A DNA stretch of 64,000 nucleotides, taken from Alitta virens. Taxonomy: Eukaryota > Annelida > Polychaeta > Phyllodocida > Nereididae. Below, piece by piece: positions 43,707 through 64,000 of this stretch (positions are counted from its first letter, which is position 1; each line of letters begins with the position of its first letter). The notes under the pieces were generated by a model. The model was not told where the DNA came from and made no database searches. It worked only from the letters and a program-made list of their open reading frames with translations. Where the stretch lies: the NCBI GenBank assembly GCA_932294295.1, contig OW028573.1, forward strand, positions 1,746,001 to 1,810,000, written 5' to 3'. The translations under genes and the position numbers were made by a program.

Positions 43707-45367
43707 TACTCGGCCTTAAGGAGCGAGGCCACACAAGGTGCTGCAGCGTCCTCCAGTCTGGACTAGATGGCAAGCACGGCACTTTATATTCTTCTTGATT
43801 GCCTCAAAATCTTACATCCTAAAGCCTCCCCATTCAAACAGTGGGAAAAATAAGCAGAACTGCAGTTCACTCAGCCTAGCTGATGGAGGACTTGGCACCA
43901 ACCCAAGACACGGGTGCTCTCACTTATTTGTGGAGTTCCATCAACCAACATCAAAAGCTGACACGTGACATGTCAACAACTAAAAGGACATCGATTCAAG
44001 TTCTGGACCAGTTTTATACAAACCTCACTTACGCTTGTCATTAAAGGCCTCTAGTGTGCCATATGGAGATGACGGGTTGAAATCGCATAAATTCACTGAG
44101 CAAGTATAATTTATGAGGACGGAAGCAGCTAAACAATGTAGCATGTATTAATATATGCAAAAATATTAAAAAAATGCTGATCACTACCATATTTGAAAAT
44201 GCTAGGCAATCAGTCAGTCATCGGCATAATGCAGCTAGGGAGACCATATAAGGACATGAGGCATAATATCCATCTGTAACCCAAATACGAGGTGATGGAG
44301 CCAATGTAGAAGTCCATATACTCATCACAGGCTGATTCAAATAAGGGACCACCAGGCCAGCAGCCAGTATATGTAATCAGAGGAGGGACATGAAATGGAA
44401 CATCAGAGCCAAGTTAACTATGCAGGGGATATTGGACCACCATTCAGCCAATTGCACAATATCACCAGTCCCTCAACTAAGTCTCAGAGTGATCAGTTGG
44501 TTGTTGGTCATGCAGGTTCTTCCAGAATATCACACACCACCCTAATACACCATACAGAGCTCTTGTAGCTCCCTTGAACAACTCTCCACACACGCTCACT
44601 AGCTCTCCTGCATTTCAGAAGCCCTGTAAAATCAAGGGAATGGAGTGAATGATGAAGCTCACAAGGTCACAATCTATACAGACCTGAATTTATATGAAGT
44701 AATAACCACTATCTCGAGCAATGCACTACATTTATGACGCTCGATACACAACCGCTCTGGGACTTACTGAGCACTGGTCTATGCATGGTGATAAGAAATT
44801 CATTCAATTTGCTTATACAATGCAGTGACTCTACAATTTATCTACTGTAGCCTTCCCTACCGTCTGTATGATTGTTGCCGACTGAAGTTTGAAAGTTTCA
44901 AGATAACATTGTACATTAGCGTATATTCTGTAATCTCAAAATCAAATATTTGTAAGTTAATTCCTGAAACCCGCGTTCATTCTCCGCTGATTTGACACTC
45001 GTAACCCCGAGTTTCTAGATAAACACTTGCTTCACATACAACCTCTGTAAACTACATTGCTCAAATTAACATCTAGTTAACTCCCTCTGTTGTGCACTCA
45101 AGTTGCACTCATAGATGACATCTCAGTGCATTCAAGGTCAACCCTGAAAAAAGCAATAACACTTTGTAATTCCATTCCAAATTCACCACCTGACAAATCA
45201 TGGCCTCCCAAGTCTGACGTCAATGAATGACCTGCGGCATAAATAATCCAAGAAACGTCAGAGATATTTGTTCACTTTGAGACAGAAAATCTATCACTCG
45301 GTCTTGGTGTCACACACAAAAGGCCTGCACGCGGGTTCAATAGGTTCAATGCATATATACTATATAT

Positions 45368-45410
45368 CTTTCCACACCTATCTATATATTATTTAAATAG
45401 ATGTGGAAAG
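45368..45410. repeat. AT-rich hairpin with CTTTCCACA arms
   Basis: CTTTCCACA-CCTATCTA pairs with TAGATGTGGAAAG around a short AT loop. It could be a small palindromic transposon remnant. Confidence 0.6.
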
Positions 45411-47699: not shown

Positions 47700-47760
47700 C
47701 CCCGAGGCTACGTGACGTACACGTGACGTAGCAGTGACGTAGTCAGACCTAGGGCCAGTT
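47700..47760. promoter_or_regulatory. Cluster of TGACGTA CRE-like sites at the element's left end
   Basis: CTACGTGACGTACACGTGACGTAGCAGTGACGTAG gives three TGACGTA half-palindromes and ACGTG cores within about 40 bp. Such clusters bind ATF/CREB or bZIP factors in animals. Whether they act as the element's promoter is inference. Confidence 0.4.
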
Positions 47761-47884
47761 TAGGTGACCTCCAGGCGGCGTAGAAGGTTGGTTACAAGGG
47801 CACGTGCCGCGAATGGGTACCCCGAGGGTAAAGCGACGGTCTTAGATTGACTAATGAGATTGTATTGAGCCAGGGGCTATAGTT

Positions 47885-48120
47885 GAATTGTGTTTCTGAT
47901 GATCGGCGACAGGCGGCGCTAGTGGTACTGGTAAGTGGCCACCAGGGGGCGGAATTGTACTTCTGATGATCGGCGACAGGCGGCGCTAGTGGTACTGGTT
48001 AGTGACCACTGGGTGGCGATTCTGCATGGATCAGAGGTGCATGAGAAATGAGTGTACGGAATAACCCAGAGGCTACACATTTTAATTCCTGCAGTGCACG
48101 ACAGGTTGTGCTAATGGTAC
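47885..48120. repeat. 67-bp tandem repeats at the left end of the element
   Basis: Copy 1 (47885-47951) and copy 2 (47952-48018) share GATGATCGGCGACAGGCGGC and following bases with about 90% identity. A third, more diverged copy (AATTCC…CGACAGGTTGTGCTAATGGTACT) lies at about 48083-48121. GTACCCCGAGG words recur at 47698 and 47816, and an ACCCAGAGG variant at 48064. Polinton termini often hold such internal repeats. Confidence 0.8.
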
Positions 48121-48360
48121 TATAACCCAAGTCGCTGAGCAATACCTCCTTACTATATATGTATAATGTACCTGAGAGTAGCCCCAGTGTCAACCAACAC
48201 AAGAATGCAAAGTGCTGTAGTTAATTGTTTATGGAGGATGCGAGGCGTATAAGACTGCTATATATACAGAACAGTACAACTCAGGAATATACTGCAACTA
48301 TACATTACATGTGTCGCTTTTGAGAGCAGACAAGCCATAAGCACACAGATAACCATTAAC

Positions 48361-48792
48361 ATGTCATACACAATAAGCTGGTATGTTTATTCTTATCCTG
48401 ATTGTGAGGATCCTAACTGTTTAACATTGCTCTACAACTCTGATAATGTATTCACAAGTTTAAATGAGTGCATAAGTGATTATTATCTTTCCGGTGTACC
48501 AACCAAATGTATGGAACGATGTTCAAACTGGGTTGTCAAGTTCTATGCCTTAGGTGACTGTAAACGTGTACCAACACCAGCAGAGACATACAATCTTACA
48601 TGGGCTGCATTTAACATTGTACCATGCTTAATGTGTGCTGAAGAGCATTACATAGAAGTTGAAAGGAGTCATGAATCATTCACCGATCTTATTACCTGTT
48701 TAAAGAACTACCAGGATAATCTTACCATTGATAAATATGATCCTGTACATAGAACTATTGTTAATGTTGAAGTTAGTCGTCATAATCATTGA
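48361..48792 (+). CDS. Cys-rich element protein of unknown function (143 aa)
   Basis: Single-exon ORF with ATG at 48361. A TATATATA about 100 bp upstream (48260) could place the transcript start. It has about ten cysteines, mainly in CEDPNC, KCMERC and CLMC settings, no signal peptide and no membrane segment. The spacing suggests a metal-binding or disulphide fold, but I do not recognise the family. It is the first gene from the left end, upstream of the integrase. The 3' side may be spliced (GTTAGTATAC at 48824, TTGCAG ending at 48910), followed by a 25-codon open stretch. Confidence 0.6.
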   Translation: MSYTISWYVYSYPDCEDPNCLTLLYNSDNVFTSLNECISDYYLSGVPTKCMERCSNWVVKFYALGDCKRVPTPAETYNLTWAAFNIVPCLMCAEEHYIEVERSHESFTDLITCLKNYQDNLTIDKYDPVHRTIVNVEVSRHNH

Positions 48793-49235
48793 ACTAGAGA
48801 CCAGGATACCATCTCATATATAAGGTTAGTATACACTGTATATTATATATAGTATATATTAATTTATTAATATATCATTATGATTGATACCAACTGTAAT
48901 TATGTTGCAGATGGATACTACACACACAGCGCAATCGGAAGGTGTCCTTACACAAGACAACATTAACAATGTATACATTGTACACTAATGTTAATAAACA
49001 TAGATCACGCTTCACGCAATAACAGTTGTTGTCATATATCTCAGACATCGCATACACATTACAGAACAACTGTTGTTAGACTACATTGTTATATAAAGTC
49101 TGACATGATCTTTACATCACCATAACTAATAAACCAGCCGGTGGTAGTAAGGTTATACTGTTGATACTATTAGTATATATACGCCTAGACTAGTTTACAA
49201 GCTGGTAATAACACAGCATTATCTAAATGTAGATC
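48793..49235. other. Spacer upstream of the integrase
   Basis: AT-rich. Contains a TATA-like TAGTATATATACGCC (49168-49182) suited to the integrase transcript, and a short ATG ORF at 48911 that may be a downstream exon of the preceding gene. Nothing else seen. Confidence 0.4.
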
Positions 49236-50366
49236 ATGGCACGAACACCAGAGATAGATCTGTTTTTGAGCGGTATCTATTACGCAATAGGTCAACCTAG
49301 TAGCTATTCCGGCATAAGAAAATTATGGAATGAAGTAAAGAATAGACCACGTAAACCTCAAGGCATAACATTGTCAGTGGTGAGTAAATGGTTGAAGGAG
49401 CAGACAACATACATGATACATAAGACACCAGTAAAAACGTTTGATACGGAGCATATAATAGTTGAACATATTGATGAACAATGGGACAGTGACATCATCC
49501 AGATGGATGACTTTGCTAAGTATAATAGAGGATACAAATATATCTTAGTATGTATAGATGTGTTTTCACGCTTTGCATGGGCACGTGCGCTCAAGTTTAA
49601 AAAATCTGCAGATGTTACAACAGCGTTTACAGACATCATTAAGACATCAGGTAGAGTATGCAAGACTATACGTACAGATCAAGGAGGAGAATATATGGGC
49701 GCAGCATTTCAAAAAATGTTGCATAGTAAAGGTATTAACCACTTAATAGCATATGGTCGTCATAAAGCTTCGTACAGTGAACGATTCAATCGTACATTGG
49801 AAAATAAACTGTTCAAGTACTTTTATGAACGACAGACAGCCATGTACATAGATATTCTGGATGATGCAATGTTTAGCTATAATAACACAGTTCATCACTC
49901 TATTAACATAGCGCCTGCCTCTGTTAATACAGCAAATTCTCATGCTATATATGAACAAGTGTACATGCCTATACTAAACAGATGGGCTAATACACCTGTC
50001 ACGTTCACTATAGCTCTAGGAAGTTTGGTTAGGTTGAGCTTATACACTAGCCCATTTGCACGAGGTTATCATGAGAAGTGGACTGAGGAATTATTCACTG
50101 TTTGTAATCACATTCCCTCGCACCCGCCTAGGTATAAAGTGAAGGATCTCAACGGTGAAGTTATCAAGGGTTCTTTCTATACAGAAGAACTACTATTAGC
50201 ATCTGTCCAGAACTTAGACGATATAACATATAAAATCGACAGAGTTATAAAAACTAAGCGAGTTAAAGGTCACAAACTCAGTCTTGTTAAATGGTATGGT
50301 TATTCTGATAAGTTTAACACCTATATACCTACAACATCCATACAGCGTTACAAAGGTAAACAATAA
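49236..50366 (+). CDS. Polinton integrase (rve-type DDE) with chromo-like tail
   Basis: 376 residues. The N-terminal helical region (YYAIGQPSSYSGIRKLW, then KWLKEQTTYMIHK) is the usual Polinton leader. The rve core follows from about residue 75. The catalytic acids are likely D86 in WDSDIIQM, D148 in RTDQGGEY and E182 in SERFNRTLEN, a D,D-33-E arrangement close to the retroviral D,D-35-E. Residues about 328-372 (IDRVIKTKR…LVKWYGY) look like a chromodomain, which in related elements reads chromatin marks and guides insertion. It would integrate the element's linear DNA into host chromosomes. All active residues are present. Its stop codon overlaps the next ATG by one base (TAATG). Confidence 0.95.
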   Translation: MARTPEIDLFLSGIYYAIGQPSSYSGIRKLWNEVKNRPRKPQGITLSVVSKWLKEQTTYMIHKTPVKTFDTEHIIVEHIDEQWDSDIIQMDDFAKYNRGYKYILVCIDVFSRFAWARALKFKKSADVTTAFTDIIKTSGRVCKTIRTDQGGEYMGAAFQKMLHSKGINHLIAYGRHKASYSERFNRTLENKLFKYFYERQTAMYIDILDDAMFSYNNTVHHSINIAPASVNTANSHAIYEQVYMPILNRWANTPVTFTIALGSLVRLSLYTSPFARGYHEKWTEELFTVCNHIPSHPPRYKVKDLNGEVIKGSFYTEELLLASVQNLDDITYKIDRVIKTKRVKGHKLSLVKWYGYSDKFNTYIPTTSIQRYKGKQ

Positions 50367-50791
50367 TGTTTGTGTACATATCATCCGATGTTGATAAAGA
50401 GAACTACTTTCCTGGTAATACACCAACATCATTCAGGGTTAAACTACCAGGTAGAGTAACATTCAGACCTAAAGGTCAATGGGAAGTTGCTCTGTTAGAC
50501 ATAGATTTACCTAGGCCTATTGACAAGTATAATGCTATATATATAACTATTAATTCGTCTATATGTAAACCTAGTCCTGTCAATGCTATACTGGCACCTG
50601 TTTTAAATAGGGTGTACTTTAACCAGGTTAACAGAGGTGCACCAGTACATTTTGATAACCCTCGTTATATACCTTTATGCATTGAAGACTTAGACATTAT
50701 AGATATATATTTAACAGATAACACCGGCATATACCCATCATTCAAACAAGGGAAGGTCAACGGGACACTACACTTCAGGTTAATAACGTAG
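50366..50791 (+). CDS. Probable penton-like minor capsid protein, short
   Basis: 141 residues, start overlapping the integrase stop (TAATG). The N-terminus, FVYISSDVDKENYFPGNTPT followed by FRVKLPG and QWEVALLDID, follows the pattern of the N-terminal part of Polinton/adintovirus proteins generally assigned as the penton or minor capsid, where a surface strand is followed by 'WEVxL.EI'. It is much shorter than the ~250-residue relatives I know, so a second part may be lost or lie in another exon. It comes before the major capsid gene, separated by a small basic ORF. Role from family pattern and context only. Confidence 0.55.
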   Translation: MFVYISSDVDKENYFPGNTPTSFRVKLPGRVTFRPKGQWEVALLDIDLPRPIDKYNAIYITINSSICKPSPVNAILAPVLNRVYFNQVNRGAPVHFDNPRYIPLCIEDLDIIDIYLTDNTGIYPSFKQGKVNGTLHFRLIT

Positions 50792-50817
50792 TTAGTGTAC
50801 GTATATACAGTTGTAGC

Positions 50818-51279
50818 ATGACTGATAATACTAAGTATAACTCTTTCAACAAGGGTGTAGATTATGACATTTTATTGAAGCATTTCAAAGGTCAAGCGGA
50901 AGGTAGGACCACACCTTATCTAACTAGTTCACGTTTTCATAGCAAAAGGGTCCACATTAATCCTCACACACGCCGTATAATTATCGTTAATAAACCAAAA
51001 ACTAATACCAAACCTACAAATGATAGAAGTATAAGTATAGGCGACGTGATCGATCCTACAGAAGCACAACGCCGTAGGGCGTTACATGATTTAGAAGTTG
51101 CAGCTACTAATATAACTACTGAACAGAAGACCCATCCTAATCACTCTGTTTTGAGCAGAGCTAATGGTAAGACAAACAGTAAGAGACACATAACGCGTAA
51201 GTCACATACAGCAAGGAAGGCAAAGTTGAAGAAGACTGTTGATAAGGTTATACAACGTACGAAGGACGTTTTTGATTAA
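50818..51279 (+). CDS. Basic element protein, possible core/DNA-binding protein
   Basis: 153 residues, strongly basic, no hydrophobic segment. A Ser/Thr-rich middle and a C-terminal tail RKSHTARKAKLKK suggest nucleic-acid binding or nuclear import. It sits 13 bp before the major capsid ATG, in the morphogenesis block, where adenovirus-like elements often encode core or packaging proteins. The tail motif recurs in the small protein at 53894-54292. I do not recognise the family. Confidence 0.6.
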   Translation: MTDNTKYNSFNKGVDYDILLKHFKGQAEGRTTPYLTSSRFHSKRVHINPHTRRIIIVNKPKTNTKPTNDRSISIGDVIDPTEAQRRRALHDLEVAATNITTEQKTHPNHSVLSRANGKTNSKRHITRKSHTARKAKLKKTVDKVIQRTKDVFD

Positions 51280-51291
51280 TAACTAATAACA

Positions 51292-52704
51292 ATGAGTCAG
51301 GAGGTGTTAGATGATGCATACATAGGTTATTCTGAGGAATTAGCTATTTTCCAGAAACCTATTCAGAATGTAGGCATTAAGAATACACATGTGACAGCAT
51401 TCTACCCTGTTAACGACTTTTCAACACAAGGTGTTATTCAGTTTCAAGTAACCAATAATAGTAGTAACTATTTAGACTTACGTAGAACAAGGCTTAATAT
51501 TACATGTAAAGTAGTAAGGCAGAATGGTGATAAGATTGAGCCTGTCACTGTAGCAAGTGCTAGGAATAAAAGATCTAAAGAGGAAGAAGAGACACCGGCT
51601 ACAGCCAGCACTGCTACAGCAACAACTGATAACAAGGCATCTGTTGGAGTTGTTAACAATTTTATGCATTCGATGTTCAGTCGTGTTGATGTATCCCTAC
51701 AGAACAAGGTGTTAACTCACTCTGACGAGTCATACCCCTATCTTGCTTATTTCAAAGCTTTACTACACTCAAACACTGAGCTGAAAGAAACAACACTGCA
51801 GATGGGGATGTTTTACAAAGATACACCAGGCGAATTAGAAGACCCTAACTGGCAGTTAGGCGATAACAAAGGTTTGAGCAAACGATCAAGCTTTTTTGCC
51901 AGCTCTCATGAAGTTGATATGTCCGGACATCTGTATTGTGATGTGTTAGACATATATAAGTTCATTCCAAACGGTGTGAGTTTAGGTATTACATTATATC
52001 CCAGTACACCAGAGTTCTGCTTGATGGCTCCAGAGGTAACAGTGGGTACCTACAAAGTGCAGATTACTAGAGCTTCTTTGAGTGTTTCAATGATAGAAGT
52101 AATTCCTGAAATATTGGTTTCACATGCCGAAATAATGCTGAATAAACCTGCAATTTTTCCATACATTAAAACGGAGGTTAAGAAATTCACTCTAGGTAAA
52201 GGCCAGTTCTCATGCACAGTTAACGATCCATTCACAGGTCGTATACCGTGTGAACTGGTGTGCGGACTTGTTACAGATGTAGGTAACCATGGTACATTGT
52301 TCACTAACCCTTTTATGTTTGAGCATGCATCGCTCAACTTTATTCAGGTCACAGTGGACGGTCAGGATCTAGGCCAAGGTCCTATCACACCATTATATAA
52401 GAGCAAGGTCGAGGCAAGTTCATACATTGATGCATACAAAACTTTGTGCGGTATAGAATATAGTGATCACTTCAATCCTCTGACAAAGGAGGAGTATATG
52501 AAAGGTTACACATTTTATAGATTTGTTGCTGGTTCGCAATGCGATTCTAATAATGATGATGTACTCCCTCTGAAACGTTCAGGAAATTTACGCATTAGTT
52601 TAAGATTTTCTGATGCTTTACCTGAACCAACAACTCTAATTGTTTTTGCAAAGTTCCCTGCCTCAGTTATGATTGATAAATACCGTAGTGTCACTGATAT
52701 ATAG
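51292..52704 (+). CDS. Major capsid protein, Polinton double-jelly-roll type
   Basis: 470 residues, one exon. The N-terminus (ELAIFQKPIQNVGI followed by NDFSTQGVIQFQV and YLDLRRTRLNI) and the central FMHSMFSRVDVSLQNKVL with YPYLAYFKALL are the signature of the 'F54H12.2-like' proteins found across invertebrate genomes, which are Polinton major capsid proteins. Size fits a double jelly roll that forms trimeric hexon-like capsomers. A low-complexity Glu/Ala/Thr insert at about residues 95-113 (KEEEETPATAS) is likely a surface loop. The ORF is intact from ATG to TAG. Position between the basic ORF and the packaging ATPase is as expected. Confidence 0.9.
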   Translation: MSQEVLDDAYIGYSEELAIFQKPIQNVGIKNTHVTAFYPVNDFSTQGVIQFQVTNNSSNYLDLRRTRLNITCKVVRQNGDKIEPVTVASARNKRSKEEEETPATASTATATTDNKASVGVVNNFMHSMFSRVDVSLQNKVLTHSDESYPYLAYFKALLHSNTELKETTLQMGMFYKDTPGELEDPNWQLGDNKGLSKRSSFFASSHEVDMSGHLYCDVLDIYKFIPNGVSLGITLYPSTPEFCLMAPEVTVGTYKVQITRASLSVSMIEVIPEILVSHAEIMLNKPAIFPYIKTEVKKFTLGKGQFSCTVNDPFTGRIPCELVCGLVTDVGNHGTLFTNPFMFEHASLNFIQVTVDGQDLGQGPITPLYKSKVEASSYIDAYKTLCGIEYSDHFNPLTKEEYMKGYTFYRFVAGSQCDSNNDDVLPLKRSGNLRISLRFSDALPEPTTLIVFAKFPASVMIDKYRSVTDI

Positions 52705-52738
52705 CTAGTTGATAAACAGTTGTTGCAGAGGGAACATC

Positions 52739-53425
52739 ATGGCAGAGTCATCTAGGAATATATGTTTAATACCGTTTACACTCCCTCAGAATATGTCTGT
52801 ACAAGGTTCAACACAAGCAGGCAAAACAGAATTCGTCAAACGTTTACTCTTGAATTACAAGACAATGTTCACGCCTCTAGTTAACAAAATTATATATGTA
52901 TATTCCGTATGGCAGGGCAAGTTTGATCACTTGGAAAGTACCTTGGGCGATATAATAGAGTTTAGGAAAGATATTCCATCAAAAGAGTATTTAATAAACC
53001 TGTGGGAGGAAACCAGAGCACCAAGTTTACTCGTACTCGACGATCAGATGAGTAATTTGAGTGATAACCGACAAGGCGCACATGTAGCTGAGATAGTGTG
53101 TGTCCTCAGTCACCACTGTCATGTATCGTGTATTATAACGTTACAGGACATGTTTTATGAAAGTAAAGCAGCTAGATTAATAAGTAGAAACTCACACTGT
53201 ATATGTCTATTTCGTAATCATAGAAATGGCAGACAGGTGTCAACTTTAGCAAGCCAAATATTACCTGGTCAAACCAAATATTTTATGGATAGTTATGAAC
53301 GTGCTACTAAACACAACTATGGTTATTTAATAGTTGATTTATCACCCAATGGTGATGATAGATATAAATTACGTTCTAATATATTTCCAGGCGAGGAAAC
53401 AGTTGTGTTTTTACCGCAGTCATGA
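52739..53425 (+). CDS. Packaging ATPase, A32/FtsK-HerA type
   Basis: 228 residues from the ATG at 52739; an upstream TTG at 52709 is not a likely eukaryotic start. Walker A is GSTQAGKT (residues 23-30), Walker B LLVLDDQ (D101, D102), followed by ITLQDMFY as the sensor region. This is the genome-packaging motor of Polintons, adintoviruses and NCLDV. The ancestral stop codon overlaps a copy of the next gene's start (TCATGA), but a 149-bp tandem duplication of the gene's end now separates it from the intact downstream ORF. Confidence 0.93.
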   Translation: MAESSRNICLIPFTLPQNMSVQGSTQAGKTEFVKRLLLNYKTMFTPLVNKIIYVYSVWQGKFDHLESTLGDIIEFRKDIPSKEYLINLWEETRAPSLLVLDDQMSNLSDNRQGAHVAEIVCVLSHHCHVSCIITLQDMFYESKAARLISRNSHCICLFRNHRNGRQVSTLASQILPGQTKYFMDSYERATKHNYGYLIVDLSPNGDDRYKLRSNIFPGEETVVFLPQS

Positions 53426-53591
53426 AACTGGTTAAGGATAGTAATGAACGTGCTACTAAACACAACTATAGTACTGGTTAGTTGTAATTGATTATCACCC
53501 AATGCTCATGATGGATATAAATTACGTTCTAATATCTTTTCAGGTGTGGTAACAGTCGTGTTGTTCCCACAGTCATGAAACTGGTTAAGGA
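53287..53591 (+). repeat. Tandem duplication of the ATPase gene end (149-bp unit)
   Basis: Unit 1 (53287-53435) is the ATPase 3' end plus the start of the next gene; unit 2 begins at 53436 with GGATAGTAATGAACGTGCTA and runs through a second TCATGAAACTGG at about 53571-53582. Unit 2 is diverged and no longer codes (stop at 53479-53481). It leaves a 19-codon decoy ORF from 53424 and the real start at 53575. Confidence 0.9.
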
Positions 53592-53901
53592 AAACATAAC
53601 ATTCTTAAAGGCTGTTGCATCGCTTAAGAAGAATCAGGTTAAAACGCTCTTGTCACATGTAAACAGGAATCAAGTACTAGTTGTAACAGAAATAGCTAGG
53701 AATATACTTACAGGCGTTGTAACGCTTCCTCGCAAGTATAAAAGTTCCCTCAAAACGTACAAACGCGTCATTAGAGAATTATCTAGCAACGACACAACAT
53801 TCAGAACTAAACGTTATTTAATATATAGTAAAGCTGACATTGTATCGCTTTTGGTCAAAAGCGTGCTCTCTAAACTCGTGAAAGTTGTTGGTCATGGCTG
53901 A
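53575..53901 (+). CDS. Small conserved Polinton protein (108 aa), function unknown
   Basis: The pattern, ARNILTGVVTL followed by YKSSLKTYKRVIREL, a KK/TKR turn and a hydrophobic C-terminal helix (LLVKSVLSKLVKVV), fits a small protein that recurs next to the ATPase in Polinton/adintovirus genomes, where 'HNLLxGNVPL…L.KYK..IR.L' is conserved. Its role is not settled; a minor virion or membrane-active protein has been suggested by its basic and amphipathic character. The stop overlaps the next ATG by 8 bases (ATGGCTGA). Confidence 0.65.
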   Translation: MKLVKENITFLKAVASLKKNQVKTLLSHVNRNQVLVVTEIARNILTGVVTLPRKYKSSLKTYKRVIRELSSNDTTFRTKRYLIYSKADIVSLLVKSVLSKLVKVVGHG

Positions 53902-54292
53902 GGAGAATGTTGTTATACCTCGAGACAAGTACAACAGAATGGTGGAACAGCTCAAAAACAGTAAAGACGATAAATTAACACAATCAACTAATGACAATAG
54001 GGAGGAGGCTGCACTAACACAGTCTGCAGATATTAAACACTCTGACGATGTAACACAACAACGTGATGATTCGATAGTTGTACACACGCCAAGAACAAGA
54101 GACGACATTGTTCTCAACGACGCCTTTCACCCTCCTGGTCTTAAGAATAAGGATATTGATATATTTATGAAAAAGTTCGATAAAAAACAAAAAAAATCTA
54201 GGCGTAATATAAAAACTAAGGTCACCCCATCGAAATCGCATACCTCACGGAAGTCCAAGCTTAAAGCAAACTGGATCAGTATTACAAAATGA
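53894..54292 (+). CDS. Small charged element protein, probably shortened (132 aa)
   Basis: Start chosen at 53894 (MAEENVVIPRDKYNRM), overlapping the previous stop. Polinton genomes usually carry, at this place, a protein beginning with a 'V.IP.D.Y.R' phrase and an acidic, low-complexity middle; this fits. The C-terminus is very basic (KKSRRNIK, then KSHTSRKSKLK), like the tail of the basic protein at 50818-51279. After the stop, the DNA encoding the tail is repeated twice in decayed form, so the gene probably lost its natural end. No enzymatic motif. Confidence 0.55.
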   Translation: MAEENVVIPRDKYNRMVEQLKNSKDDKLTQSTNDNREEAALTQSADIKHSDDVTQQRDDSIVVHTPRTRDDIVLNDAFHPPGLKNKDIDIFMKKFDKKQKKSRRNIKTKVTPSKSHTSRKSKLKANWISITK

Positions 54293-54490
54293 TAAACATA
54301 TGAAGTTTGATAACAAAATCTAGGAACAATATGAAAGTAGTATCACATACCACAAGAAGTCTAAAGCAAATGGGATTGGTATTACAAATGATAACGTATG
54401 AACATTAATGTTTAATAAACAATCGAAATCACCTACCACAAGGAGGTCTAAGCTTAAGCTAACTGGATCAGTATTACAAAACGATAGCAC
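54187..54490 (+). repeat. Three decayed copies of the preceding gene's 3' end
   Basis: AAAAAATCTAGGCGTAATAT…TGGATCAGTATTACAAAATGAT is followed by AAAATCTAGGAACAATATGA…GGATTGGTATTACAAATGAT (from 54315) and then by AATCGAAATCACCTACC…CTGGATCAGTATTACAAAACGAT (to about 54485). Periods are irregular (about 105-125 bp). Only the first copy is coding. Confidence 0.75.
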
Positions 54491-54628
54491 TGTATTGTGA
54501 TGCTAAAACAATATGTGGTTATTTAAGGACATAATCAGTAGTACTATGATGCGGTTGTGTTTGATGTTATTACAGTTGGCACACGTGTATGCCATACATA
54601 TCAGCTTAATGCAGACCGTTAAGCAGAG

Positions 54629-54636
54629 TATAAAAG
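54629..54636 (+). promoter_or_regulatory. TATA box of the PC4-domain gene
   Basis: TATAAAAG about 100 bp upstream of the ATG at 54730. A start of transcription about 30 bp downstream would fall after the in-frame ATG at 54646, which argues for the 54730 start. Confidence 0.6.
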
Positions 54637-54729
54637 ACCTAATACATGCAGACAGTTCACACACCAATCGACCTAAGAGTTCTACAGCATATTATCAGAT
54701 CGTCACACTGTGTTTATCTACTCAATACG

Positions 54730-55603
54730 ATGGCAACCAGTCCGTTAACAGGCGCATATTACAACCAGTGTGGAACCAAGGTAAAGGGCCAGTTCCTCTG
54801 GTTCAGAGAGATAAACTCTAGGAAGTTCTTATCCCTCCAGAGGTACAGAGGAAAGGTCTCCCTGCACATTCGTGTTTACACCATTGACGATCAGGATTAT
54901 TGCCTTATCCCCACAAAGAAAGGGGCTATGCTTGACAAACAACAAACCAGGGATCTAATGACCACAATGCATGAGCTTGCAACGTTCATAGGAGTCGTAA
55001 GTAATTTAACACTAAACATAATACACACTGTACATGTTGATATGCATGACACTACTATTTCTTATCACTTTGCAGGTTGCACCAAACAGCATAACCCACT
55101 CAGATGACGATGGCATTGCTGATGAAACCCTTACACCTGATGCCATGGTTGATGATGTAGAATGGGGTATCGATGGTAGAGAGCTGTCTGCCGATAATGA
55201 TGATATGGACGAATACTCCCAGAATATTTATAAAGTGCACATTGGGAAGAACGTTCACTGCAGGGCAAAGAAAGCATCGAACACCGTAGACGTGCGCCAT
55301 AGTTTCTTTCGCAACATGTCCACCACATCTGAGCACCCTACACAGAGGGGAATTAAGTTGACCAAGTATGAGTTTACCAAGCTTCTTAAGTACCTCCCTC
55401 AGCTGGAAGCGAAATGGAAGGGCTTGGCTGACTTAGCAGCCTGTTACACAACACACACAACTCCAGATGCCCTCCAAGCATGCCACCACTGCACGCCTAA
55501 ACCCTTACCTCCTAAACCCCTGATCATCCGTTCAAATACGAGGGAGCCTGGTGCCGCAACTTCAACAACCGCGATAATTGACGAGTTACCTGTGATTCAA
55601 TAA
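54730..55603 (+). CDS. Double PC4-domain protein (264 aa), probable ssDNA-binding/transcription factor
   Basis: Two exons, 54730-54996 and 55076-55603; the 79-bp intron has GTAAGT and TTTGCAG ends and joins in phase. First PC4-like repeat, about residues 22-85: REINSRKFLSLQRYRGKV, a strand pair, then PTKKGAMLDKQQ and a helix. An acidic linker (SDDDG to DDMDEY) follows. The second, about residues 135-195, has YKVHIGKNVHC, VDVRHSFF and RGIKLTKYEFTKLL. These match the beta-beta-beta-beta-alpha pattern of PC4/p15 (SUB1) and its 'KKGISL' motif. PC4 folds bind single-stranded DNA and act in transcription. In an element with a protein-primed polymerase, this could be the replication SSB, or a late transcription factor; that choice is inference. 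The C-terminus is Pro/Thr-rich. Confidence 0.72.
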
Positions 55604-56224
55604 CTACATGCTGACAACCACCCCTGTATCTGCAAAACTCATAACATTATAGCTAGATCGTTGTACCAGTACATATCTGTTATAAAACGGTATATTGTAG
55701 TACTATACTCTCCATGTTACGACTGTATATGCTATGCTTATAATTGTCACACTTTACCATCACAATGCATACATGTATTACTCTATATATACTGCATATT
55801 ATACTATACTGTGTCTCTATTATATATCTTGTCAATACATACCATTGTGCATTATAATGTATCCATGTATACTACTAATATATCTCTTGTAATTACATTT
55901 ACTCCAGTTATTTGTAACTTATGCTGTAACCATGTATACCATAATAAATATATCTCCGTCAACTCATTCTGTGTGCTATATCACTCAATTTGTCAAAGTA
56001 TATGTTGTAACCATGTATACCATGATAAATATATATCCATTAACGCATTCTGTGTTCTATATCACTCAATTTGTCAGAGTATAAGTACGTTGTTATAGTA
56101 CACGGCTACCGCCCTCCCTTGATGCATGTCATGATCCACTTTAATGAGATGCGTTAATACTGGTTACTACCACTGCCCCCAAGGTGTGTACATAACGAGA
56201 GTCGTTAATGTGTTTCTCACCCAG
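55604..56224. other. Spacer before the CARD gene
   Basis: AT-rich, non-coding. It holds the 81-bp repeats and an intact but low-complexity 145-codon frame (55661-56098) dominated by Tyr, Ile, Cys and Ser, which arises from the repeat composition and is not taken as a gene. Confidence 0.55.
55922..56083. repeat. 81-bp tandem repeat, two copies
   Basis: GTAACCATGTATACCATRAT recurs at 55926 and 56007, and the following ATTCTGTGTNCTATATCACT stretch is also duplicated, with about 90% identity. Confidence 0.9.
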
Positions 56225-56234
56225 TATATATAAA
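56225..56234 (+). promoter_or_regulatory. TATA box of the CARD gene
   Basis: TATATATAAA 56-65 bp upstream of the ATG at 56290, with a plausible transcript start near 56260. Confidence 0.65.
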
Positions 56235-56289
56235 GAAGTTTTAACCATAAGTGAGCAGATATTATCCTAGTACTATCACATAGCTCGCT

Positions 56290-57029
56290 ATGGAAATATT
56301 AAGGGATTACGCCGATGTATTAATCAATATGACTAATACCAACGAAATATGCATAATACTGCGTTGTGAAGGTTTGCTTAAGGATTCTGATCTACTTCTT
56401 ATCAGATCTAAAACAACACGATTCGATAAAACGAAGCTTTTGTTAAAAACATTGTATTCAGGGAAGAGTTACAAAGGTACAGCACTATTTTTTAAGTATC
56501 TGCAAAGGGAGTACAAGAGCGTTGTCAACACAATTCCTGAACTCATAGGAGGTAGCCGTACAAGTCTAACAATTAATACGGCATTAACACTCTGTGTTAT
56601 GTGTACAGACGGCGATGTAACCATTCAGCTGACAGATAATCAGGTTAGTAATACATATGTGTTTACATATTGCACTAGTATTTGATACACATTCTTTAAC
56701 TATAATCCTATTCTCATTTTGTTTAGGATGATGTTCTTAAAGAGGAGTTGACTGTATCATTACCACTTCAACAGTTTGTGAACATGGTATACTATATACC
56801 TGCCTTAGCCTTTGATGATATTGATACAACTGCGCATCTTGGGTGTTTCTACTACTTAATTAAGGAAGGATGTACCACAACGGTATGCAGGACTACTAAT
56901 AGCTCTAAGAAGGATGAACATGTGTCCTTAACTTCTGAGGACTTACAGACCATTAATATGTTGTTAGAACATGTTGAACATGCTGTTCCAGAAATGACTC
57001 TTCTAACACCTCACTTTTGTTACATCTAG
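56290..57029 (+). CDS. CARD-containing element protein (218 aa)
   Basis: Two exons, 56290-56643 and 56727-57029; the 83-bp intron (GTTAGT…GTTTAG) joins in phase. Residues about 3-88 follow the six-helix CARD pattern: LRDYADVLINMT (H1), EICIILRCEGLL (H2), KDSDLLLIRSK (H3), TRFDKTKLLLKTLYSG (H4), YKGTALFFKYLQRE (H5) and YKSVVNTIPEL (H6). The G-LL-SD, R…K-LL and F-L positions are those conserved in CARDs of caspases, Apaf-1, NLR and MAVS-type proteins. CARDs bind other CARDs in apoptosis and innate immune signalling. Residues about 96-215 form two strand-rich repeats each ending in a helix (SLPLQQFVNMVYY and SLTSEDLQTINMLL), which resemble the PC4 repeats of the neighbouring gene. The role is unknown; interference with host death or sensing is an inference. 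A DED is a less good fit. Confidence 0.7.
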
Positions 57030-57975
57030 TCATATACTGTTAACCGTTCAATATATATCCTAAGTAAGCTATTATATATATATATATACAATGATTACGA
57101 TAACACATAAATGACTGTTCATTTATAATATTTTTAATGCACCGTCAACTACTACATATCATATCAAACAATTGTGCGCGTTACATGTCATTATGGACTG
57201 CATAATAAAGAGTACGCTTGCAATGCTGTTGTTGTTGTTGTTCATCTCGTACATGTCCAACACAAATCATTTACCATATAACGTTACATTACATACATCT
57301 CATGCATTCCGGACATACACCATTTAACATAATAACATTACATCGCATATTTATACTACAGATTACGTCTGCACTGCTGTTGCTGTTCGTCTAGTACATT
57401 CATAACATAATCAGTTAACATGCATCATAACATAATCAGTTAACATGCATTCCTGCCATAAACCAGTTAACATATAATAACATTACATCTCATACATCTA
57501 ACATTACATTGTTCGCCTACAAACGATTATAGACAGTATACTACAGATTGTGCCTGCACTGCTGTTGCTGTTCACCTCGTACAGGCAGGGTATAATCAGT
57601 TGACATATTAAACGCATAACTGTACTGCAGCTACATATTACGTTACCAGTTATATATACACCTTGATAACACTGTCTTTATTAAACACATTTGTAACAAT
57701 GCTACATATTAACAAGTTCTCAACTGTACTACAGTTGTGTCTAAAGTACATTAAAATAAAATAGTATGTAATAAAACTCAAGCTGATTACAGCCGTCATG
57801 TATATGGACATATCTACCAGAGAGAGGACCCTGCTATAGCACTTATCGCATATGCATATATAATACTATGCTAAGGTAAACTACCGCTGCTACAATATAA
57901 CGCTAGCTCGTGCTAATATAATGATCAAGCTTGTTACAAACCATCATACATATAGATACACGACGCAAAGGTATC
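57030..57975. repeat. Repeat-rich spacer between the convergent gene blocks
   Basis: Non-coding. A (TA)n run is at 57073-57089. A diverged unit, with CTGCACTGCTGTTGCTGTTC, CTCGTACA and ATAATCAGTTAACAT words, recurs at about 57215, 57368 and 57551. It separates the forward genes from the leftward genes and should contain both sets of 3' ends. Confidence 0.6.
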
Positions 57976-58664
57976 CTAAACTGGTGTACCGTGGCCGGTG
58001 AACGCCCTCAACTTTGATCTGTAATCTGGAGGTGACCCGTCAGCAGCGGGATTGGTATAAGTCAGCTTGACTTTCACGTCGGCGGTGGGTCCATCAGCGA
58101 TTGTACTTGTAAGAGGTGTGGTGGTTGAGCTGCAGGCAGTGGCATCGTGAGTGGTGGGTGTGCACAGAAGTTCTGCAACAGTGCTATCAGCTCGGGTAGA
58201 GTCGTCACACGAGCTACAATAAGAGTCAACGTTATATATAAGTTATACAGTGTGATAGCATTACATTACATAACTACAGTTATCTGTACTGATAATAACA
58301 CCGTATAGATATGTACAACAGGTCTGTAATTGCATCTGTTACTATACAATAGTATGATATGTACAACAACTCATCAGTAACATGAATGTAGCGCTGCAAT
58401 GGTACGATATATATCAGATATACTGTATACATATAGATGTATGTATACAGTACACTAGCAAATAACATGACAATATATACAATGTATACCTGCTACTATT
58501 GGATGTTGTGCTATTTCGCCGCAGTCTATTACGTGCTCCTGTAAGAGTGTGGCGAGCCATGCTGACGACACCTGTCAGTACTGCCGTACCGGCGGCAGGG
58601 TCTCTCTGTAGGATAAATAAGCAGCATTGTATTCAGACAACCATGAAAAAGTATAGTACAGCTG

Positions 58665-58697
<33 letters not shown>

Positions 58698-59374
58698 ATG
58701 TACAGTATGAAGTGTAACCATATCGCACCGCAAGAGAGCTGGTACATGTATAATGTTAAAAAGAAAATGGACAACAATAACACACGTAGTACTACCATGT
58801 ATAAGGACTATATTGCACAATACATATATACTGTTAAGAATATACAGCCGTGTCAGTAATATGTACTATATATATCTATATTTACAGTGTACTATATACA
58901 ACAATAACGTACCTTATAGAGCCAAACGCCAACACAAGTTAGTATAATCACTAACAACACCGTGGAGATTGTGGGTATAACAATAGCTAACGTGTTGTTA
59001 GAATTGTTAACAACTCTGCCACGTGATCCAAGGTTGTAGGTTCCGAGCCCCGGGTTCTGCATCTCTGTGACCTTCATACGCGAGCAAACAACATGCGCGG
59101 CTACATCGTGAGTAGGAGGGGTGTGCAGGTTGCAATAACGTGTGCCAGTCATGTCTATGAAGGATAGAAGACTGTACTCCATTGACGAAAACTCCTCGAT
59201 TGGTACATGATCAAGAGATGGTGAAGTAGTACAATCAGCCCTAATACTACGGCCATCATCCACAACTTTACACAAGCACATACGACTAGCGCATATGTAG
59301 CGGTATCCGTCAGTACTTAATACCAGTGCTGCTGCGAATAGAAGGCTAAAAGACTGTCTCAATAAATTTTCCAT
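57976..59374 (-). CDS. Type I membrane protein A with LRRNT-like ectodomain (271 aa)
   Basis: Minus-strand exons 58913-59374, 58490-58605 and 57976-58213 (TAG) join in phase. Signal peptide about residues 1-23 (LLRQSFSLLFAAALVLSTDG). The ectodomain has CxxxxxCLC, a DGR-S-RADCT step, LDHVPIEEF and LLSFIDMTGTRYC, like the N-terminal cap plus first repeat of a leucine-rich-repeat protein. One N-glycosylation site is NNSN. Then comes a transmembrane helix at about 129-150 (LAIVIPTISTVLLVIILTCV), with WLYK at the cytosolic face, an Arg-rich tail (exon 2) and a Ser/Thr-rich tail. It is a paralogue of the gene at 60340-61158. The role is unknown; a receptor-like or envelope-like protein is possible. 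Exon 3 is notably GC-richer than its surroundings. Confidence 0.72.
58664..58697. repeat. (CA)n(TA)n microsatellite in an intron
   Basis: A run of CA then TA dinucleotides inside the first intron of membrane gene A. Confidence 0.9.
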
Positions 59375-59469
59375 GTTATCTCTTTGACTGTCCAGAACAG
59401 AGTGAATAGAAACCCCCCAGATTGTAAGGGTTCATTATGTAATTACCCTCGTGATTTATTATATAATTA

Positions 59470-59502
59470 ACACCCCCTTAAGATTTCTTTAAACGGGGGT
59501 GT
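59470..59502. promoter_or_regulatory. GC-armed hairpin upstream of membrane gene A
   Basis: ACACCCCCTTA pairs with TTAAACGGGGGTGT around a short AT loop. It lies about 100 bp upstream of the ATG at 59374, in a C-tract-rich patch (CCCCCC at about 59413). Could be a promoter element or structured repeat. Confidence 0.45.
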
Positions 59503-59790
59503 CAAACAATATTAGGTAATTAGCAGGGTGGTGTCAACTACTTAGGTAATACAGGCTGTTATAAACACAGTGATGCTAACAGTTCAAACACTACTACAAT
59601 AGGTCATTGTGTATGAACAATAGTCTAGCTGTCTATCATAATATATCCTGCAGGATTATTGACAAATTACAAATTATGTATTAACTAGTAAATGATGGAA
59701 CTACACTGTATTATAATTATGTGTAGCGCTGAACCCATCCAACCCTAATACATGGATAACAAGTAATGATTACGCGTATATATCAAATAT

Positions 59791-60226
59791 GATATATAGC
59801 AATAATAAGTATACTACATAGGTGTATTATGACCCAATAACTTTATTATTATATACTATGCATGTTACGATACATTAATGAGACATTTGGTGGTGGATGT
59901 TATACATATATATTATATCCTCAATCATGTGTATTATTAACAGAGAGATATATAGCAATAATAGACATACTACACAAGTGTATTATTATCAAGTAACTTT
60001 ATTATATACTATGTATGTAACGATACATTAATGAGACACCAGTAGTGGGTGTTATGCATATATATCCACAATCATATGTATTATTAACGGAGATATATAA
60101 CTGTAAATAGGCATACTACATAGATGTATTATGACCAAATAACTTTATCATATACATTTAATGAGACACTTGGTAGTGTATGTTATACATATATTATATC
60201 CACAATCATATGTATTATTAACACTG
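59791..60226. repeat. ~150-bp tandem repeat, three copies
   Basis: Copies start with GATATATA at 59791, 59947 and 60092. Each contains CATACTACA, TGTATTAT, AATAACTTTAT, TTAATGAGACA and TGTATTATTAACA. Identity is roughly 85%. It lies between the two paralogous membrane genes. Confidence 0.85.
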
Positions 60227-60339
60227 CAATATGTACTACTGTGTGAGAACATTTAGTAGTACTTTAACGCTAGTATCTACAAGGATATATGCTGATATTA
60301 ACAAGTCTGCGCCGACGTTTATTAACGATGTCACGAGTG

Positions 60340-60793
60340 TTACACAAGTTCTTCGTGTGAGCTGGTCACGCCGGTATCTATCTTTATACGTAGCACCAGT
60401 CGTCTGAGACGTTGCACCATTGTAATAGTTATTATACCGATCTGTAAACGAAAGAACAGTTTGGTAATTAATCCTAAATGCATGCTTACATAATGCTACT
60501 GTTCAATTACAGTGTAATCGTATAAGCTAGGCATTGTGCACATGTACCTTGAACGTTATGTATAGTAGGACTATACATGATACACAGAACTGGAAGATGC
60601 TGAGACTATTCATTGTACTATGTTGATTAAGTTCTGTGCTAGATGAATATTGCACTACATTGTGCACTATTGAAACATTGTGATCGTCTTGCGTAAATGT
60701 TGTAATCACTGAGGTGGTATGTACAGTTGCCATGTTACTCGTATGTTTGATAGATCTCTCTGAAATGCATAATAATGTATTATTAATGACGTG

Positions 60794-60828
<35 letters not shown>

Positions 60829-61158
60829 GTTTATGCAACAGAGTAACTCACCTGTAGTACTGCCACGGCATAAGATTGTTTTATTATGCGCAGTTGTCTT
60901 TAATGATGTACTATGACTATGGCAGAACATAGTACCTGACATATCGATCAGCGTTATAAGTTGTAGAATGTACGTTGAAAACGAGGGGAGTTGTCGGAGC
61001 CATGACAGTTTGGTACAATCCGCTTGAAGATGTAATCCATCCCTTAATGTTGTGCATGTACATACACCAAAATGACCACCGGATACATAGGATCCACACA
61101 ATATATTGCCGTTAACGATAAGTGGCATGTAGAAGAGAGTTACAGCACCGAACAGCAT
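60340..61158 (-). CDS. Type I membrane protein B, paralogue of A (206 aa)
   Basis: Minus-strand exons 60852-61158, 60548-60759 and 60340-60441 (TAA) join in phase. Signal peptide about residues 1-17 (MLFGAVTLFYMPLIVNG). The ectodomain has CGSYVSGGHFGVCTC, DGLHLQADCT, LRQLPSFS and LITLIDMSGTMFC, lining up with protein A over the whole cap (C-x-C, ADCT, L-LP/IP-F, ID-M-S/T-GT-x-x-C). A Thr/Ser-rich stem with N-glycosylation sites follows. The membrane helix is at about 150-178 (LSIFQFCVSCIVLLYITFK, then IGIITI), interrupted by intron 2. The short basic tail (QRLRRLVLRIK) is cytosolic. A TATA-like CTATATATTAA about 70 bp upstream (near 61230) is the likely promoter. Function unknown. Confidence 0.7.
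60797..60824. repeat. (TA)n microsatellite in membrane gene B intron
   Basis: TA run just inside the first intron, close to the donor of exon 60852-61158. Confidence 0.9.
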
Positions 61159-61360
61159 TCTATACGCTGCAAAAACGTTTGAGCTACTTCTCTATATTCA
61201 TATCAGCTGTCACGTGCTGCAGGTTAATATATAGAACATTGCGATAGCTGAACCTGCCAAGGTCATAATATAGAACATCCAGTACGTTATCATGTAAGCT
61301 TTAGGTAACAACGCATATCTGGGGTACACATACACACGAGCGCATACAGGTTAACCTAAC

Positions 61361-64000
61361 TTAGTAACCGTAAGGTAATGTGTTGTATGTATCTACACCT
61401 ATGACTCTTTTGTCAAAGATTTTTCTGAATGTTTTACTTACTGACCTATTATACACTATACCTCTATGCTTAACACGTGATATTTGATTACTCTGAGGAA
61501 GTTTAACTGATGTTTCCTGACCAAACACAATCCGTTTCATACACTCGAAATCTATAATTGCATCATTTGTGTAATTAAATGAGATACCTTTGATCTTACG
61601 AACTGTAGCATCCGTGTTTAATTTATACGAGTAGCTCTTAGGACCTGTAGATAGGAAGGTTTTAATATATGTATCTTGTTCTAATTCGTCTGTTAACTCT
61701 CCTAACAGGTCACCTGTTCCAACAACTGCTTCACCATTGCGCTCAACAAATATGACAGAATCTGTGTCATAATACAAGGTGTTGTCGCCTGTTTTATTTA
61801 GAACCTGTAGTAAATGCAAGCGTGCTAATGATGTTGTGAATATACCTATAACTTCATTTGTGAATGTTGATTCCTCTTCAAAAGTCTCAGTGTTCGTAAT
61901 ATCTACCACAACGTAGTCCTCGGAGATTAAATGGAAATTCATTATACACTTTGTCGGATCATTTTTCATCTGCATATATTCCTTAACAGACTTCATGTAA
62001 ATAGATTTAGGTAAGTTTTGGCGCTGTACAAATTTACCCCACACACTGTTGAGGAACAGTTTGCAGATTGTTCTCAAAGAAGGATTATGTGTGATTGAAT
62101 CTTTATCTAACATGATACCTTGTTCTCTATTATAATAGTCTATGTAACGATCTTTGTCATCATCTGTAATGACCCATTGCGGGTAGCCAGATGCCTGCTG
62201 TTTCTGTTTAAGAAACATTTTCACATAATCTGTGAAAATACTACCAAACGCATCATCCTTCGTCGTAGTAGGGAAATGGTACACTTCGTATATCTTGATC
62301 AGTATGTAACCTTGTTTAACAGCTTCTTGTAGCTCTGGTGTTGTCCATGTACCAAATAATGCCCTCTTAGTATCGCTACACTTGCATGATGACTGTGTTT
62401 CGCGTGAGGAACATGTACCGCATAAAGGAAACTTTAGTTTACCTTTACATCTAACTGGTAAGACGGGAATGTAAAGACCTCGTGGAGGTAGGATTCGCAC
62501 CTGGGCTAGACCGTAATACGACTGTAGCGTATAATCAAAGCTTGACGGGTCTTTTATCACTGTAGCATGTGACGTAGGGTAAATCCCCGACATCGTGATA
62601 AAAGGATAAAGCGAAGTTACGTCATAATAACGTATCCTCTCACCATCCTGAGCCTCGTAATATAGCGTTGTGGGTTCAACCCTACCACCAAAAAAACTAT
62701 CGCGGATCTTTAATGGTCTGACAGTGTCGCACGTATTGATAAACTCCCTCATGACAGGATTAGTTGTTATGAGCTTGTCGTAGTGACACTCCCAAATTGA
62801 GATAATACTGTAGCCTAACGTTCTAATTTCCTGAAGACGTGCTATAGTTCTGTCATATAACTTCTTCAGCGACATACGCGTACGAGGATCACGTAATGTT
62901 CGATCTTGTAAACAGGTGTGTCCATGGAAACGACACCCTAGGTACTCGTACACTGTATTACTTTGCAAATGTATACCATCGACGAAGTACCTTGTACCAG
63001 GGATACGAAATTCGCCACCATTCCTAGCATGTTGTATATGTCTACCTTCGGAGTGACTTACCCATTCTAACCATAATGCAGACTTTTGACTATCATTATG
63101 ATGTTTACCATAACCTTGTGCAGGTATTTGAGGTATGGGTGACTTGATAAAGTTTGATGTAGATATGAGGTCTGGGTTAATAGTGTCACCATCAAAGAAC
63201 CATGTGCCCCTCCTGAGAACCGCCTCGCCTGATCTGCCATCAGTTAAGGTAACATTATGGACCTCGTACAACATCAACTGTCTTATGACCTGCATAGCAC
63301 AAGATGCCAGAGTTGCATGTGCAAACGGATCGATACCTGGAACACCACACTCTGGTATAGTTGTAACAACCTGGATAAGTTTTCTAAAACTAGTGCATGC
63401 TTCCCTCAAAATGGAAACATCTGAACGCGTGTAATCCAACATTTCCTGTTGGAAATTAAATGTCTTGCCAGCCTGTTCATTGTACCATATAAAGAAATCG
63501 TTCCTATCGTCTGTTGACATGAAATCAACGCCGTAATAATACGGTGCAAACATCGGGCCTACATAGTCTTGATTGTCTAGAGTGTTTGCCAAGTGTGGGA
63601 AGTCACCTTTTTTCAGGTTCCCCTGTAAGTTTAGCGCTTTAGGCAAGTTCTTCAACCGCATGGGTAGAAAATTCAGGCTGTCTATAAACCTGATGCTCAC
63701 ACCCTGCTTTATATTCATCAGCATAATCTTAGTACCTGAGAATATAATTTCAGGAAAGACGCCGTTATCCACACAATAGCCAAGTATAAAATGAGCATCA
63801 AAGGCCTTAGAGTTATGAGCTATGGCTGTAACATCTTTATGTTGGGGCGTTAACAACCATTTACAAAACTCCTCTGTTGTATCGGGGCCTTTGAATATCT
63901 TCTCACGCATGCCACATGTATCATTTGGGCATGTTGCCCTCGCGTAAGCTTTGTTTAATTTACCATTAACTGAGCAGATGCTACATCTGTCACCACAGTT
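61361..64000 (-). CDS. Family B DNA polymerase, protein-primed type (N-terminus beyond window)
   Basis: The frame is open from the right edge to the stop at 61361 (880 codons in the window, 849 residues after the first in-frame Met at 63910). The part before that Met is Cys-rich (CGDRCSIC, CPNDTC), as seen ahead of the polymerase in Polintons, so the gene continues past 64000. Exonuclease-type features: AHNSKAFDAHFIL (Exo II-like) and DYTRSDVSILREA (Exo III-like). Polymerase motifs: YDVTSLYPF (A, at 62602-62628), LFLNSVWGKF (B, about 62031-62060), YYDTDSVIF (C, at 61757-61768) and KIKGISFN near the end. A Cys cluster (CGTCSSRETQSSCKC) lies between A and B. It would copy the linear element from a protein-primed end. 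All catalytic acids are present and there is no frame break. Confidence 0.95.
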   Translation of the reverse strand, partial: NCGDRCSICSVNGKLNKAYARATCPNDTCGMREKIFKGPDTTEEFCKWLLTPQHKDVTAIAHNSKAFDAHFILGYCVDNGVFPEIIFSGTKIMLMNIKQGVSIRFIDSLNFLPMRLKNLPKALNLQGNLKKGDFPHLANTLDNQDYVGPMFAPYYYGVDFMSTDDRNDFFIWYNEQAGKTFNFQQEMLDYTRSDVSILREACTSFRKLIQVVTTIPECGVPGIDPFAHATLASCAMQVIRQLMLYEVHNVTLTDGRSGEAVLRRGTWFFDGDTINPDLISTSNFIKSPIPQIPAQGYGKHHNDSQKSALWLEWVSHSEGRHIQHARNGGEFRIPGTRYFVDGIHLQSNTVYEYLGCRFHGHTCLQDRTLRDPRTRMSLKKLYDRTIARLQEIRTLGYSIISIWECHYDKLITTNPVMREFINTCDTVRPLKIRDSFFGGRVEPTTLYYEAQDGERIRYYDVTSLYPFITMSGIYPTSHATVIKDPSSFDYTLQSYYGLAQVRILPPRGLYIPVLPVRCKGKLKFPLCGTCSSRETQSSCKCSDTKRALFGTWTTPELQEAVKQGYILIKIYEVYHFPTTTKDDAFGSIFTDYVKMFLKQKQQASGYPQWVITDDDKDRYIDYYNREQGIMLDKDSITHNPSLRTICKLFLNSVWGKFVQRQNLPKSIYMKSVKEYMQMKNDPTKCIMNFHLISEDYVVVDITNTETFEEESTFTNEVIGIFTTSLARLHLLQVLNKTGDNTLYYDTDSVIFVERNGEAVVGTGDLLGELTDELEQDTYIKTFLSTGPKSYSYKLNTDATVRKIKGISFNYTNDAIIDFECMKRIVFGQETSVKLPQSNQISRVKHRGIVYNRSVSKTFRKIFDKRVIGVDTYNTLPYGY

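Follow-up and report, generated by a model that had tools for sequence, protein, structure and literature searches.

A CARD-like domain and a PC4-like second exon in one spliced gene of an annelid Polinton

Polintons have been viewed both as transposons and as viruses. In animal cells, sensors of the AIM2/IFI16 type combine PYD with HIN, and Apaf-1 is a large NB-ARC/WD40 protein. Small CARD proteins have also been described from animal DNA viruses. For example, the ranavirus protein GIV-CARD of grouper iridovirus, which is CARD-only and ICEBERG-like, is reported to inhibit apoptosis (PMC4457926), and human CARD-only proteins bind caspase-1 (PMC7555848). The gene described here, carried by a Polinton in a window of 64,000 nucleotides (the whole stretch of DNA analysed), resembles GIV-CARD and Frog virus 3 064R in encoding what is probably another small CARD protein of an animal DNA virus, a likeness of kind. 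However, those proteins are CARD-only, 91 residues long and from large viruses, whereas the Polinton protein has 218 residues, is encoded by a spliced gene and has a PC4-like C-terminus. The 100 further residues contributed by its second exon, which are conserved and under purifying selection, set it apart from CARD-only proteins.

Several host proteins offer further comparisons. The Apaf-1 CARD (PDB 3ygs and others) is the best-scoring solved relative, with an alignment that is gapless over 78 residues, but Pfam finds no NB-ARC or WD40 domain in the Polinton protein, and neither exon has a Pfam match to an effector domain such as a caspase or NACHT. ICEBERG/CARD18, the best PDB match of a shallow exon-1 profile (A1; E 0.24, not significant alone), has in common the decoy logic proposed below, but is a product of host genes without a DNA-binding part, unlike the Polinton protein with its PC4-like half. 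The AIM2/IFI16 sensors are an analogy only: a death-fold domain and a DNA-binding part share one chain, as they may in the Polinton protein, but the pair is PYD and HIN there and CARD and PC4-like here. A neighbouring gene of the element belongs to the PC4/p15-Sub1 family (PF02229) and its second domain resembles exon 2, whereas Pfam PC4 recognises none of 19 exon-2 sequences. Among the matches listed in the literature search there was no paper on a Polinton with a CARD domain or caspase recruitment, and a word search of a preprint on double-jelly-roll viruses (PMC11071308) returned no mention of sponge, apopto-, death or PC4. A CARD-PC4 protein in a Polinton appears to be new, while iridovirus CARD proteins are already known.

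Table 1. Features of the Polinton and its CARD gene, in window coordinates
Feature	Position	Strand	Remarks
Left copy of target-site duplication AACACA	47666..47671	.	
Polinton, in-window part	47672..64000	.	right end outside window at 66532
Left terminal inverted repeat region	47672..48020	+	blastn, window 40001-49235 against L027
143-aa Cys-rich ORF	48361..48792	+	between left terminus and integrase
Retroviral-type integrase, rve + chromo	49236..50366	+	Pfam rve 8.7e-14
Putative penton/minor capsid protein	50366..50791	+	position and family conservation
Putative double jelly-roll major capsid protein	51292..52704	+	position; 54-98% conservation in relatives
Putative FtsK/HerA-type packaging ATPase	52739..53425	+	weak Pfam FtsK_SpoIIIE 0.031; conserved in relatives
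PC4 gene exon 1	54646..54996	+	Pfam PC4 3.7e-6, above cutoff; donor gtaagt at 54997
PC4 gene exon 2	55076..55603	+	second PC4-like domain and C-x3-H-x8-C-x2-C tail
TATA-like box TATATATAA of CARD gene	56225..56233	+	from sequence; putative
CARD gene exon 1	56290..56643	+	118 codons; CARD at about codons 1-83
CARD gene intron	56644..56726	+	83 nt, phase-0, GT...AG; position common to relatives
CARD gene exon 2	56727..57029	+	100 codons and stop; PC4-like domain
Membrane-protein gene 1	58892..59374	-	signal peptide and TM by eye
Membrane-protein gene 2	60796..61158	-	paralogue of gene 1; cross-matches 29-39%
DNA polymerase B	61361..64000	-	Pfam DNA_pol_B_2 8.7e-44; continues beyond window

The element is 18,861 bp long (Table 1). 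Its termini are AG...CT inverted repeats that start with AGTAGTTACAGGGCG at the left end (47672) and, inverted, at the right end (L027:2532, window coordinate 66532), and the 6-bp target duplication AACACA is present in both flanks. With these termini, the duplication, an rve integrase and a family-B polymerase, it is a canonical Polinton/Maverick. The integrase lies near one end and the polymerase, presumably of the protein-primed type, toward the other; the stretch that separates them holds the capsid-like, ATPase-like and PC4 genes. The integrase chromo domain (Pfam 4e-5) is slightly below its cutoff, the two ORFs that we take to encode the minor capsid/penton and major capsid proteins have no match in Pfam, and no maturation protease was identified in the element. 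Since the CARD gene lies inside the termini and the target duplication, it is cargo of the element, as the earlier note had proposed, and other copies, where the gene has the same neighbours, agree with this; a host gene in the flank is ruled out by the same placement.

Two other parts of the element deserve mention. The Cys-rich ORF has a weak match in a distant family, in L021/L022 (27%, E 0.008-0.015). The two membrane-protein genes, which lie on the minus strand and thus opposite the CARD gene, are small, paralogous and fast-evolving and could possibly have a surface role; in L022, MEM1 falls to ~29% identity compared with 57% for the capsid-like protein.

Re-reading of the sequence bore out the coordinates given previously for the CARD gene (56290-57029), its two exons and its length of 218 residues, as well as the TATA-like box, which lies ~60 nt 5' of the ATG. 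The splice model is supported by metagenomic relatives whose open frames end just beyond the donor or start just ahead of the acceptor, the exon-1 donor being kept in these frames and the acceptor in P0011 and P0012. Of 20 distant copies, 19 have a GT donor, while in L036 the intron apparently has GC instead (~404-409), and in L038 a frameshift falls immediately ahead of the donor. Downstream of the CARD, the rest of exon 1 appears by eye to hold the first strands of a PC4-like domain.

Residues ~1-83 of exon 1 are CARD-like, an assignment that Pfam family matches, a PDB profile search and profile-profile comparison all support. Taken alone, exon 1 of the window has CARD (PF00619) as its best Pfam match at a sub-threshold 0.0015 (18.9 bits against a cutoff of 23.9), and a single-sequence PDB search with it returned no CARD (best E 1.1). 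In a first alignment 6 of 6 members match Pfam CARD. The deeper alignment A3 comprises 24 exon-1 sequences including host-genome copies, has 118 columns, is gapless inside and reaches down to 25% identity; 12 of its members match, the best at 2.7e-5, consisting of nine window-type sequences and 3 of 15 distant ones (L021 0.089, L033 0.094, L036 0.058). The 12 members without a match all come from distant families, and Pfam CARD was not matched in distant L029, L030, L031, L032, L035, L037 and L046. Two relatives, L010 (24.6 bits) and L012 (24.1 bits), exceed the CARD cutoff with matches that span positions 4-82 of the 85 in the profile, the other 8 of 10 proteins being below it. The next-best family on exon 1, PF22386 (0.038), scores 0.0031 on both exons joined, with CARD at 0.004; it was rejected as the identity because it is weaker on exon 1, covers only 31 residues and has few members.

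Comparison of the A3 profile with 177,635 PDB sequences placed the Apaf-1 CARD at the top (E 3.5e-4, residues 4-81, gapless), and the first nine matches are all Apaf-1 or ASC chains. The list with E<=10 has 18 matches, and the names of 16 mark them as CARD-bearing: 13 Apaf-1 chains, ASC, ICEBERG and a designed protein derived from the Apaf-1 CARD; we take the matched stretch of ASC to be its CARD and PDB 1cy5 to be the Apaf-1 CARD. The two other matches are MreC (0.015) and Spc98 (0.19). Similarly, hhalign of the N-terminal 90 columns against four PDB CARDs gave E 9.2e-4 with a probability of 23%; none of 100 column permutations scores as high against the CARDs, and reversing the profile yields 0.14. 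Compared with the Apaf-1 CARD, hydropathy has a correlation of r=0.53 in the aligned register, which was chosen by the alignment, and of <=0.10 for shifts of 1-6.

The earlier note had described a six-helix CARD, and of this claim the homology holds on the sequence profiles above, while the six-helix fold did not find confirmation in structure prediction. The AlphaFold model of exon 1, built on six sequences only, has a pLDDT of 50 and strands at 19-26 and 33-40, where CARD helices 2-3 are expected. The AlphaFold inputs (six and five sequences) predate the deep A3 alignment, and the models, with pLDDT ~50, are uninformative. Hydropathy periodicity is clearly helical for helices 1 and 4-6 and not clearly so across residues 13-36 (helices 2-3). 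An unrelated small helical domain with a chance resemblance to CARDs would account for the poor, partly stranded model, for the sub-threshold Pfam score and CARD-free single-sequence search of the window copy, and for the weak matches that 3 of 24 A3 members have to other Pfam families, Trp_repressor among them. However, independent searches converge on the CARDs of several proteins and the alignment is gapless across the domain, and we consider such a coincidence very improbable.

The PC4-like C-terminal half of the protein had been missed by the earlier note. By hhalign, exon 2 is similar to the second PC4-like domain, with its Cys/His tail, that the PC4 gene of the element encodes, at E 2.8e-5 (74%, 0/60 permutations) and in other runs at E 1.2e-4 (55%) and E 2e-4 (47%, 0/100 permutations), each of these E-values being for one comparison. 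No significant similarity links exon 2 to the first PC4 domain (3/60 permutations reach the score), and the two domains of the PC4 gene are not alike by permutation test (5/60). In two families the second domain matches Pfam PC4 under the cutoff, at 0.006 in one and 0.0015 in the other, and its sole match in a PDB profile search is PC4 6ycs (E 1.9); for the gene itself, an inner ATG at 54730 is a possible start. An exon-2 profile did not find PC4 in the PDB, its best match there being the unrelated PhnB protein 3oms (E 0.014), and one exon-2 member matches Pfam 3-dmu-9_3-mt at 0.22; a PhnB/glyoxalase-type identity is not favoured, since these are single weak matches. Exon 2 therefore likely shares ancestry with the element's own PC4 gene, a claim that, because the profile similarity comes without a Pfam PC4 match, does not extend to membership of PF02229.

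In distant copies exon 2 looks PC4-like by eye and ends in C-x5-H-x8-C-x2-C, which the tail of the PC4 gene resembles, whereas the tail is shortened in the window's family. By eye, the CARD protein may hold tandem PC4 units. Endings of this Cys/His type, which could possibly form a zinc site, occur in the distant CARD proteins L021, L029-L032 and L035-L038 and are absent from the window's family.

Relatives of the gene are numerous. In metagenomes, exon 1 has nine (69-98% identity over 35-100% of the exon) and exon 2 has three (70-77%), besides P0010, which is the window's own. A search of the same genome (671 Mb, 23 contigs) found at least 287 exon-1 places, the window's and pieces of split genes included, a number that combines the best 150 of 379 candidates for the window query with the best 150 of 374 for a distant query, 13 being shared. 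Together, the metagenomic relatives and the genomic places make a chance origin of the gene very unlikely. Of the best 150 for the window query, 112 span residues 1-118 almost completely with 68-100% identity, another 13 are full-length with 31-32% identity, and the remaining 25 are pieces; 12 are identical in protein, the window's own included, and 10 contain an in-frame stop. The best 150 for the distant query are 45-100% identical to it, with a stop in 6. Queries with the ATPase, integrase, capsid, A1 or A3 found no relatives in viral contigs, nor did A3 find any in a single scan of prokaryote genomes.

The earlier note had suggested looking for the gene in other Polintons, and it is indeed there, with the same neighbours in other copies. 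In 14 of the 19 stretches read around matches the CARD gene comes after the second PC4 exon in the same orientation, and the order PC4 then CARD holds in 8/8 of L001-L008 (L001 being the window); for L029-L048 the sequence read covers the gene alone. In addition, a distant Polinton family (L021-L023), which the note had missed and whose capsid-like gene is ~55% identical, carries the CARD gene immediately 5' of the integrase. The gene has relocated between the positions behind PC4 and before the integrase, and the direction could be either way. All loci were picked by the CARD gene itself, and these counts describe such loci rather than its frequency among all Polintons. A host-domesticated defence, in which many copies would serve the host, for instance against related viruses, could be suspected from 287 places that are mostly stop-free (140/150 and 144/150 in the two scored sets). 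It is nevertheless very unlikely, as the gene adjoins capsid-like, ATPase and PC4 genes in most stretches read, and the 12 protein-identical places suggest that the gene spread recently and is not fixed in the service of the host.

The substitution pattern indicates purifying selection on the CARD gene. For CARD codons 1-84, dN/dS is finite in 9 of 14 pairs (0.08-0.19 in eight, 0.42 in one close pair), dS being saturated in the other five; for codons 85-118 it is 0.05-0.27 in 12/14, 0.88 in the window-L021 pair and saturated in one; and for exon 2 it is 0.10-0.33 in 6/6 pairs. Exon-1 identity to the window tracks that of exon 2 over 14 loci (Spearman 0.89), that of the first membrane gene, also over 14 (0.82), and that of the ATPase over 15 (0.67). 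One could read the protein as a replication or packaging factor in which the CARD is a polymerisation module that would let the PC4-like protein build helical assemblies on viral ssDNA, with no host target. The resemblance of the exon-2 profile to the neighbouring PC4 gene, an exon-1 divergence that follows that of the ATPase and PC4 gene, and the presence of the gene in two element families (at loci picked by the gene itself) would all suit such a factor. The element is, however, already served by a free-standing PC4 gene, and the closest solved CARD relatives are host signalling CARDs, which leaves this reading unlikely, if worth keeping in mind.

A CARD that comes without an effector domain and is under selection in a replicating element is best fitted by a decoy. 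Our leading reading, to which we give a probability of roughly 0.5, is therefore that the protein acts as a dominant-negative decoy in the CARD signalling of the host and may be tethered to viral DNA. The element's CARD would pair with a host CARD (in an Apaf-1-like, NLR-like or adaptor protein) and cap the signalling filament, so that caspase activation would be blocked while the element replicates. The PC4-like part suggests a location on viral DNA and may tether the protein there, at the place where the sensors of the host would gather. That the protein folds as a CARD, pairs with other CARDs, binds DNA and inhibits signalling is what we infer, and viral CARD proteins provide a precedent for the decoy. 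More tentatively, Polintons may have taken a CARD from a host and joined it to a second copy of their PC4-type ssDNA-binding protein. The product would be a virus-borne equivalent of a nucleic-acid sensor that, on viral DNA, would intercept or commandeer host CARD sensors and would have been kept across Polinton families diverged to ~55% capsid identity.

The same domain order, with a CARD and a DNA-binding-like part in one chain, fits the logic of a sensor, and the protein might instead act as an agonist, setting off death or inflammation in the host so that the element is released or competing viruses are kept out. This seems improbable, as early death would damage the replicating element and the ranavirus CARD tested is inhibitory to apoptosis (PMC4457926). 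If the gene does target host death-fold signalling, as the decoy reading would have it, it would be direct evidence that Polintons counter animal innate immunity like an infecting virus, and it would provide a handle on the CARD signalling of the host.

Several loci carry interrupted or rearranged forms of the gene. In the distant family, the order pieced together from several copies (L021, L022, L023 and L049) is MEM', MEM', CARD, INT, PENT, P153, MCP, ATP, P108, P132, PC4. A 988-aa open frame at C5:26747769, which suggested a long host protein fused to the CARD, was rejected as such because codon 83 is the insertion site of a retroelement with reverse transcriptase; in this locus (L024:1987-4773) a reverse-transcriptase/RNase H element, recognised by eye, continues the CARD frame of exon 1 and produces the misleading frame. 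A ~3-kb insert splits exon 1 in L026 (1803-4846), and L028 is a truncated piece of the gene. L018 appears to be a rearranged or chimeric element, with capsid and ATPase genes inverted (3000-5911) beside a polymerase fragment and the CARD gene. Six copies in C11:28445275-28753822, of which L026 is the one read, have neighbours ~51 kb or twice that apart and exon 1 split near codon 76-81, and they look like a tandemly amplified block with an interrupted Polinton. Finally, L003/L004 (C14:16274069 and 16276788) have two CARD genes 2.7 kb apart with the PC4 gene repeated, an arrangement that reads as a tandem duplication within one element.
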